From NCBI RefSeq assembly GCF_000380165.1, contig NZ_KB904653.1, positions 62,001 through 126,000 of the forward strand: DNA of 64,000 bases, given 5' to 3'. The position numbers and the translations under genes were made by a program. Numbering within the stretch: position 1 is the first letter of the stretch; each line of letters starts with the position of its first letter. The notes beneath the pieces are model-generated. The model was not told the origin of the DNA. It did no database searches and was given only the letters and a program-made list of their open reading frames with translations. The stretch is from Wenjunlia vitaminophila DSM 41686. Lineage in GTDB: Bacteria; Actinomycetota; Actinomycetes; Streptomycetales; Streptomycetaceae. This document shows positions 47,315 through 51,489 of this stretch, piece by piece.

Positions 47315-49722
<2,408 letters not shown>

Positions 49723-49735: not shown

Positions 49736-49935
49736 GAGAGCCGACCTCAGTGCGGCGGCGCATCACCACTCCGTGAGACGACACCCACACCGGCGGCCCC
49801 GCCGGAACCACCGCCCCGGTCCGTCCCGGCAGAACCAGGGAAACCGCCCCACGGGCGGTGCCGTGCCGGTACTCTCGCGGGCGCAGACACCGCTCCAGCC
49901 ACCGTCGGGGGCCGGCCAGGAGGGAGGCGTCGTCC

Positions 49936-51489
49936 ATGACCGAGCCGCCGAGCGACTTCACCGCCACTGAGGGCCGGTTGTGGCAGGCGTTCCGCCACGG
50001 CGACGTCTGCGACCTGCGCACCGGTGTCCCCGAACTGGACAACCCGAACACCAGCCGCGTCTGGGGTCCCGAGCGGACCGTGCGGGCAAGCGCGGTGGCC
50101 CGGCTGCTCCTCGACGGCCCCCAGCCGGTCCCGGGAACGGTCTGCGCCCTGAAGCTGTCCGGCGCCCGGATCTCCGGTTCGCTCAGCCTCGCGGGCGGCA
50201 CCGTCTCCCCCTACGTGGAGCTGCACGACTGCCAGTTCGAGGAGCAGCTCCTGATGCCCGAGTGCAGCTTCACCACGCTGCGGATGGTCCGTTGCGCCAT
50301 CCCCCGGATCGAGGCCGCGCGCATGTCCACCCAGGGCGACCTGCACCTGCCGCAGTGCACGGTGCCCGGGGGCATCCGCATCACCGACGCCAGCATCGGC
50401 ACCGACCTGCTGCTCAACCAGCTCGTGGTCCACTCCGACCGGCACGGCCGGGCCATCTCCGCGGACGGCCTCACCGTCACCCAGGACGTCGAGGCCGAGC
50501 TGATCAGGGCCGTCGGGGAGATCAGCCTGCGCAGCGCCCGGATCGGCGGGCGGCTCAGCCTGCGGGGCAGCTCGCTGCGGAACCCCACCGGACGCCAGGC
50601 CCTCAACGCCGCGCGGATCGCCATCGAGCACACCCTCTACCTCAGCTCGGGGTGGGAGAGCGACACCCTCAGCGGCACCGGCACCCCGCCGCGCGGGGTC
50701 CGCACCCGGAACTTCACCTGCGACGGCGGGATCCGGCTCGACGACGGCCGGTTCGGCAACGCGCTGGTGATCAACCGCGCCCGCTTCCGGCTCACCGCCG
50801 GCCAACAGCTCTCCCTGCGCCGGATCCAGACCCCGGAGCTGCGGTTCACCCCGCAGGCCCCGCCCACCGGGCGGATCGTGCTGTCCAGCGCCAGGGTGGG
50901 CAACCTGGCCACCGAGGCCGCCTGCTGGCCCGGGGCCGGCATGATCGACATATCCGACTTCAGCTACGTCTCGCTCCGCCCCACCGGCCCGTTCCCGCTG
51001 CGGGCCCGCCTGGAGTGGCTGGCCAACGCCACCCCCGAGTACAGCCCCGAGCCGTACGAGCAGCTCGCGGCGGCGCTGCGGGCCGACGGCATGGACGAGG
51101 AGGCCCGCGAGGTGCTGCTGGCCAAGCAGCGCCGCCGCCGGGAGACCCTCCCCCTGGCCACCCGCATGTGGGGGTACGCCCAGGACCTCACCGTCGCCTA
51201 CGGCTACCGCCCCGGCCGGGCCGCGGTGTGGATGGCGGTGCTGTGGGCGATCGGCTCGGTGTACTTCACCCGGAACCCGCCCGAGCCGCTGAAGGACGGC
51301 GAGGGCCCCACCTGGCAGCCCCTGCTGTACGCCCTGGACCTGCTGTTACCCGTGATCGACCTGGGCCAGGACAACGCCTGGCGGACCTCCGGCCTCCAGC
51401 AGTGGGCGGCCACCGCGATGGTGCTCGCGGGCTGGGTCCTGGCCACCACGGTGGCGGCGGGCGCCTCCCGCCTGCTCCGGCGGAACTAG
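49936..51489 (+). CDS. Beta-helix protein with C-terminal two-TM pore-like domain
   Basis: A 517-residue protein; homologues are often labelled membrane-associated oxidoreductase, a name I cannot support since no cofactor motif is seen. Residues about 50-360 show regularly spaced I/L-G/S-L-S turns (GARISGSLSLAGG, SARIGGRLSLRGSSL, SARVGNLATEAA), as in pentapeptide-like right-handed beta-helices. A helical linker follows, then TM1 (AAVWMAVLWAIGSVYF), a short hydrophobic LLYALDLLLPVIDLGQ segment and TM2 (WAATAMVLAGWVLATTVAAG), resembling a TM-P-TM pore. The segment contains a TTA codon (51346-51348). ATG 49936 has GGAGGGAGG upstream. Confidence 0.78.
   Translation: MTEPPSDFTATEGRLWQAFRHGDVCDLRTGVPELDNPNTSRVWGPERTVRASAVARLLLDGPQPVPGTVCALKLSGARISGSLSLAGGTVSPYVELHDCQFEEQLLMPECSFTTLRMVRCAIPRIEAARMSTQGDLHLPQCTVPGGIRITDASIGTDLLLNQLVVHSDRHGRAISADGLTVTQDVEAELIRAVGEISLRSARIGGRLSLRGSSLRNPTGRQALNAARIAIEHTLYLSSGWESDTLSGTGTPPRGVRTRNFTCDGGIRLDDGRFGNALVINRARFRLTAGQQLSLRRIQTPELRFTPQAPPTGRIVLSSARVGNLATEAACWPGAGMIDISDFSYVSLRPTGPFPLRARLEWLANATPEYSPEPYEQLAAALRADGMDEEAREVLLAKQRRRRETLPLATRMWGYAQDLTVAYGYRPGRAAVWMAVLWAIGSVYFTRNPPEPLKDGEGPTWQPLLYALDLLLPVIDLGQDNAWRTSGLQQWAATAMVLAGWVLATTVAAGASRLLRRN

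Follow-up and report, generated by a model that had tools for sequence, protein, structure and literature searches.

The gene at positions 49936 to 51489 of the window (the whole stretch of 64,000 nucleotides that was analyzed) encodes a 517-aa protein in which a predicted right-handed β-helix precedes a membrane module that, judging from structure models, very probably has a channel-like fold. We see about an even chance that this is a channel-fold protein with a divergent filter, probably a tetramer, whose membrane part is coupled to a β-helix in the cytosol; given a channel-like fold, we put ion conduction at somewhat better than even. The sequence-only reading of this DNA had presented a β-helix joined to a small channel as a novel architecture. 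Proteins combining a pentapeptide β-helix with Ion_trans_2, such as Nostoc P0011, already exist in the databases, and the 517-aa protein is a filter-divergent variant of this known β-helix plus two-TM channel architecture, so that the earlier reading was right in part. The features are as follows.

48412..49722, reverse strand: hisD (histidinol dehydrogenase), divergent neighbor, given for context and named from its sequence and its place in the his cluster
49920..49927, forward strand: GAGGGAGG, a likely ribosome-binding site, judged from the sequence
49936..51489, forward strand: whole gene, 517 aa, ATG at 49936, stop at 51489 (ORF reading; divergent synteny with hisD)
49936..50076, forward strand: N-terminal cap, residues 1-47, with a helix at 10-21 (AlphaFold2)
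50077..50982, forward strand: β-helix, residues 48-349 (AlphaFold2, pLDDT mostly >90)
50998..51144, forward strand: three helices, residues 355-403, with the motif PYEQLA..LR..G.D..AR.VLLAK..RR (AlphaFold2; profile-shared with pentapeptide/Ion_trans_2 proteins)
51154..51192, forward strand: helix before TM1, residues 407-419, pLDDT ~72-84, a possible slide-helix equivalent (AlphaFold2, VIA-align)
51199..51219, forward strand: YGYRPGR motif before TM1, residues 422-428, among the most conserved stretches (alignments)
51211..51273, forward strand: TM1, residues 426-446 (AlphaFold2, hydropathy)
51274..51318, forward strand: turret-like loop, residues 447-461, of varying length among relatives (AlphaFold2, alignments)
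51319..51345, forward strand: short helix at the pore-helix position, residues 462-470 (PLLYALDLL), pLDDT 92-93, D468 ~95% conserved (AlphaFold2, alignment)
51346..51369, forward strand: extended filter-like loop, residues 471-478 (LPVIDLGQ), no TVGYG, P472 invariant, Q478 ~95% conserved (AlphaFold2, alignment)
51370..51393, forward strand: loop to TM2, residues 479-486, W482 conserved (AlphaFold2, alignment)
51394..51477, forward strand: TM2, residues 487-514 (AlphaFold2, hydropathy, alignment)

The open reading frame is not a chance one. Matches to the 517-aa protein come from 48 of 61 related genomes and 20 of 30 genera, and among the matches listed hisD is the divergent neighbor at 78 of the 80 Streptomycetaceae loci (named loci, nearly all from Streptomyces), the other two, where this neighbor is not shown, being short contigs. 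This presence and synteny mark the gene as old, syntenic, and conserved, and the protein occurs in most soil Streptomyces; phyla outside Actinomycetota were sampled via plasmids only. In the ORF list, the gene is flanked by hisD and by a gene for a putative methyltransferase. The hisD gene is a stable neighbor but is divergently transcribed, and its proximity does not count as evidence for a role of the protein in histidine synthesis. Searches of Pfam, NCBIfam, PADLOC, PHROGs, and PDB sequences returned no meaningful match.

The β-helix of about 300 residues, which had been proposed from regularly spaced turns, is borne out by the AlphaFold2 model, where it is right-handed and spans residues 48-349. 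VIA-align comparisons of this part gave Z of 17-19 against right-handed β-helix proteins, including the pentapeptide protein HetL (Z 17.9, rmsd 3.2 over 232 residues). Tailspikes and lyases reach similar Z, so the match to HetL is generic, and this fold is common to many families besides the pentapeptide-repeat proteins. The model shares the right-handed β-helix with HetL and MfpA; these two are pentapeptide-repeat proteins, whereas the 517-aa protein matches neither the pentapeptide families of Pfam nor PF07885. Several distant homologues do pass the PF13576 (pentapeptide) cut-off.

The whole-protein AlphaFold2 run, which used 64 homologues, had a mean pLDDT of 92.4 and a pTM of 0.83; residues 404-517 modeled alone reached a pLDDT of 84.5 and showed the same elements. 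A helical region (residues 355-419) joins the β-helix to TM1, and residues 462-478, PLLYALDLLLPVIDLGQ, form a short helix plus an extended loop between TM1 and TM2, with block pLDDT values of 92 for the short helix (462-470) and 83 for the loop (471-486). That two runs on different alignments agree lends weight to this interhelical arrangement. The earlier description of two hydrophobic helices with a short hydrophobic segment between them agrees with the hydropathy profile, in which the two TM helices stand out as peaks (19-mers starting at 427 and 492); a weaker peak at 459 corresponds to the interhelical loop segment, and a single marginal one, at 69, falls inside the β-helix. The net charge is positive before TM1 and after TM2 and negative in the loop between them, which suggests that both ends are cytosolic and that the loop faces outward.

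The likeness of this region to the pore loop of two-TM channels, pointed out from the letters alone, holds at the level of the predicted fold, not of function. A Foldseek search, suggested at the same time, matched the module to K+-channel pores, and VIA-align assigned the β-helix part to right-handed β-helix proteins. With the whole model as query against PDB, KcsA rows had the highest probability (0.92-0.98; target TM 0.61-0.67; E-values near 1), and with residues 404-517 alone all 50 of the 50 rows listed were K+-channel structures, with probabilities of up to 0.99 for KcsA and target TM-scores mostly of 0.6-0.7 (0.72 for 4h33); the E-values of the channel matches were weak, from 0.1 to 2. 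VIA-align superimposed the module on KcsA (Z 8.3-8.6, rmsd 2.8-3.5, 85-90 residues) and on 4h33 (Z 8.5, rmsd 2.4, 84 residues), pairing model residues 18-114 with KcsA residues 22-117, a range that takes in TM1, TM2, and the intervening loop. NaK rows came first by Z and were not relied on because of their rmsd of 11. The tool's own note rates a VIA Z of 8-10 as middling where helical bundles are concerned; since such values can be common for helical arrangements, we place the weight on the uniformity of the rows and the agreement of the two predictions. A profile of the module found no channel among PDB sequences, and the TM-pore helix-loop-TM subunit fold of the K+-channel pore superfamily is present in the module by prediction only. 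The model shares this fold with the pore subunits of KcsA, MthK, and KirBac, and may also have their conserved TM2 glycine in G499 (the VIA-align chain ends are compatible with a pairing of G499 with KcsA G99). In contrast to these channels, it has LPVIDLGQ in place of the TVGYG filter and a large β-helix before TM1.

No T-x-G-[YF]-G filter was found between TM1 and TM2 in the 517-aa protein or its aligned relatives. Among 65 aligned modules, P472 is invariant (65/65), and D468, Q478, and G477 are kept in 60, 59, and 56, respectively, whereas the filter-like positions I474 and D475 vary; in alignment A5, the TM2 residues G499, W500, L502, G509, and R512 are invariant. The segment LLYALDLLLPVIDLGQ, which holds P472, is well conserved, though its rank of 43 among 502 sixteen-residue windows does not make it the most conserved part of the protein, as had been anticipated. 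Loss of the second helix in homologues, named beforehand as an observation that would speak against a pore module, was not seen: the relatives inspected over the whole module retain TM2 as well as the loop segment. Many relatives read TVGYGYRP directly before TM1 (in several, within DxTVGYGYRP), a string identical to the K+ filter, where the 517-aa protein reads TVAYGYRP (51195-51212 region). This string was rejected as a filter, as it precedes TM1 and no hydrophobic segment lies upstream of it; a motif search would therefore mislead.

Profile comparisons point to a sequence link between the module and pentapeptide/Ion_trans_2 proteins. The Nostoc plasmid protein P0011 consists of pentapeptide repeats, a CGYGEQPFR motif, TM1, Ion_trans_2 (PF07885, E 9e-10), and TM2. 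When the module profile (31 sequences) was compared by HHalign with ten plasmid-borne proteins related to the pentapeptide/Ion_trans_2 protein, the match had a probability of 93% and a score of 49.8, against 15.1 for the reversed profile and at most 15, 21, and 38 for column shuffles in blocks of 1, 5, and 20. Addition of four intermediates (L242, L204, L247, and L241) raised these values to 97% and 70.5, against 17.9 for the reversed profile and at most 49 and 63 for shuffles in blocks of 20 and 30. For the loop and TM2 by themselves, no clear signal was obtained (17.6 versus shuffle maxima of 14.5-23.7); the link thus comes mostly from the stretch that leads up to and includes TM1. Of the intermediates, L242 combines an NYLNPLGFGDI loop, in which GFGD is kept, with the same CGYGYQP motif, and L204, L241, and L247 have eroded loops behind the motif before TM1 that they share with the module. 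P0011 and the haloarchaeal plasmid proteins of this kind share with the 517-aa protein the order β-helix, helical segment, (C)GYG..P.R motif, TM1, loop, and TM2. The haloarchaeal members are annotated as pentapeptide repeat or potassium channel family proteins, and most keep TLGYGD-like loops, whereas the 517-aa protein lacks a K+ filter. Our literature search found no study of pentapeptide-channel fusions.

If the module does function as a channel, its fold suggests a pore made by four subunits, in which TM2 would provide the lining and segment 462-478 would fold back into the membrane from the outer side. The β-helix may sense a ligand or partner and, together with the helices that follow it, could move TM1 and TM2 via helix 407-419, much as the slide helix of Kir channels acts on TM1; the invariant G499 may serve as a hinge. 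Ordinary K+ selectivity is unlikely, as TVGYG is missing, and a conducting pore would be expected to be weakly or differently selective. A further, tentative reading, to which we give less than an even chance as a whole, is that of a separate widespread lineage that would conduct ions via a new filter, gated by the cytosolic β-helix, in most Streptomyces, with that filter built on the invariant proline and the conserved glutamine (P....[LF]GQ); such a lineage would have been overlooked owing to the lack of a Pfam match and to misleading labels. If the protein conducts, a conserved, hisD-adjacent protein of nearly all Streptomyces would be an unrecognized channel whose filter departs from the K+ signature, and it would offer a test case for a channel fold without TVGYG and for gating by a β-helix.

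The main competing explanation, somewhat doubtful but to be taken seriously, is that the module descends from a channel and no longer conducts, serving as an oligomeric anchor that would keep four β-helices on the membrane to provide a platform or a sensor. The loss of the K+ filter, the variability of I474 and D475, and the eroded loops of sister families that carry this motif ahead of TM1 (L204, L241, L247) are all consistent with this possibility. Against it stands the strong conservation of P472, D468, and Q478 across actinobacteria, which a mere anchor would not need, although these residues could still be structural. Were the module non-conducting, it would clearly exemplify a channel fold that has been put to new use as an anchor.

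It is unlikely that the module is an ordinary anchor made of a two-TM hairpin and an interfacial helix and that its channel likeness reflects a preference of AlphaFold2 and Foldseek for a familiar arrangement. Such an explanation would fit the weak Foldseek E-values, the middling VIA Z, and the weak profile signal of the loop plus TM2, but it has to contend with the agreement of the two predictions, the exclusive presence of K+ channels among the 50 rows listed for the module, and the profile link to Ion_trans_2 proteins whose domains come in the same order.

HalA of the Hailong anti-phage system is an ion channel that has a part for sensing in the cytosol, an arrangement to which the one predicted for the 517-aa protein can be likened. 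Its C-terminal part was among the structural matches of the module in VIA-align, with a Z of 9.0 but a high rmsd of 5.3 over 100 residues; no sequence match between the two proteins was found. HalA is described as an ion channel that poly-dA blocks (PMC13275509). We nevertheless regard it as quite improbable that the 517-aa protein serves a conflict or anti-phage system as a channel effector in the manner of HalA: caspase-family genes are found near two distant plasmid homologues, and in one case CU044_2847 genes as well, but among the loci listed hisD adjoins the gene in nearly all Streptomycetaceae, a housekeeping-like setting rather than a defense island, and PADLOC gave no match. HalA also pairs with halB (nucleotidyltransferase), whereas the ORF list shows no sign of halB beside the 517-aa gene.

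Finally, the idea that the protein is an oxidoreductase, for which only the labels of relatives speak, was rejected as highly implausible: as the sequence-only reading had noted, no redox motif backs the label (GxGxxG, CxxC, CxxCH, and YxxxK were searched for in the 517-aa protein and none was found, leaving it without nucleotide, haem, or metal motifs), there is no enzyme family match in Pfam or NCBIfam, and the predicted fold is a β-helix plus a channel-like hairpin. The labels “oxidoreductase” and “membrane-associated oxidoreductase” were found on Streptomyces plasmid homologues, the label of the hisD-adjacent orthologue not being among those seen; on these relatives the name is misleading, whether or not the protein conducts.

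Plasmid homologues from Rhodococcus, Acaryochloris, Shinella, Microvirga, Roseomonas, Rhizobium, and Sinorhizobium have the same order of parts. In their alignment, the loop proline and the module glycines 144 and 154 (G499 and G509) are invariant, the length of the loop varies, and Q478 is replaced in some members. The homologue on the Acaryochloris plasmid pMB04 (L119/L250, 20663-27137) occupies two ORFs that overlap. It has CU044_2847 family genes on one side and a caspase family gene on the other, and NB-ARC and TIR genes are close by, which is a conflict-system setting. A distant homologue on Sinorhizobium meliloti pSymA (L121/L251, 53654-60950) is found near caspase family and C1 peptidase genes, and the one on a Roseomonas gilardii plasmid (L122, 1964-3654) is encoded in two ORFs, one for the β-helix and one for the membrane part. 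Two open frames of ~1,050-1,200 residues in Actinomycetota (L196 and L200, in G393 and G429) appear to carry much longer β-helices before the same membrane module.

The PF07885 ion-channel domain was not found in the assembly to which the window belongs (G000, 99% complete), whereas most genomes sampled in the phylum have one. The same genome encodes a second protein (L192, G000:C26:30402-30629 and around) with canonical pentapeptide repeats, after which come the motif SGYGLRASRAL and, at the end, two TM segments with a long loop that has eroded; this sister family is common on Streptomyces plasmids.
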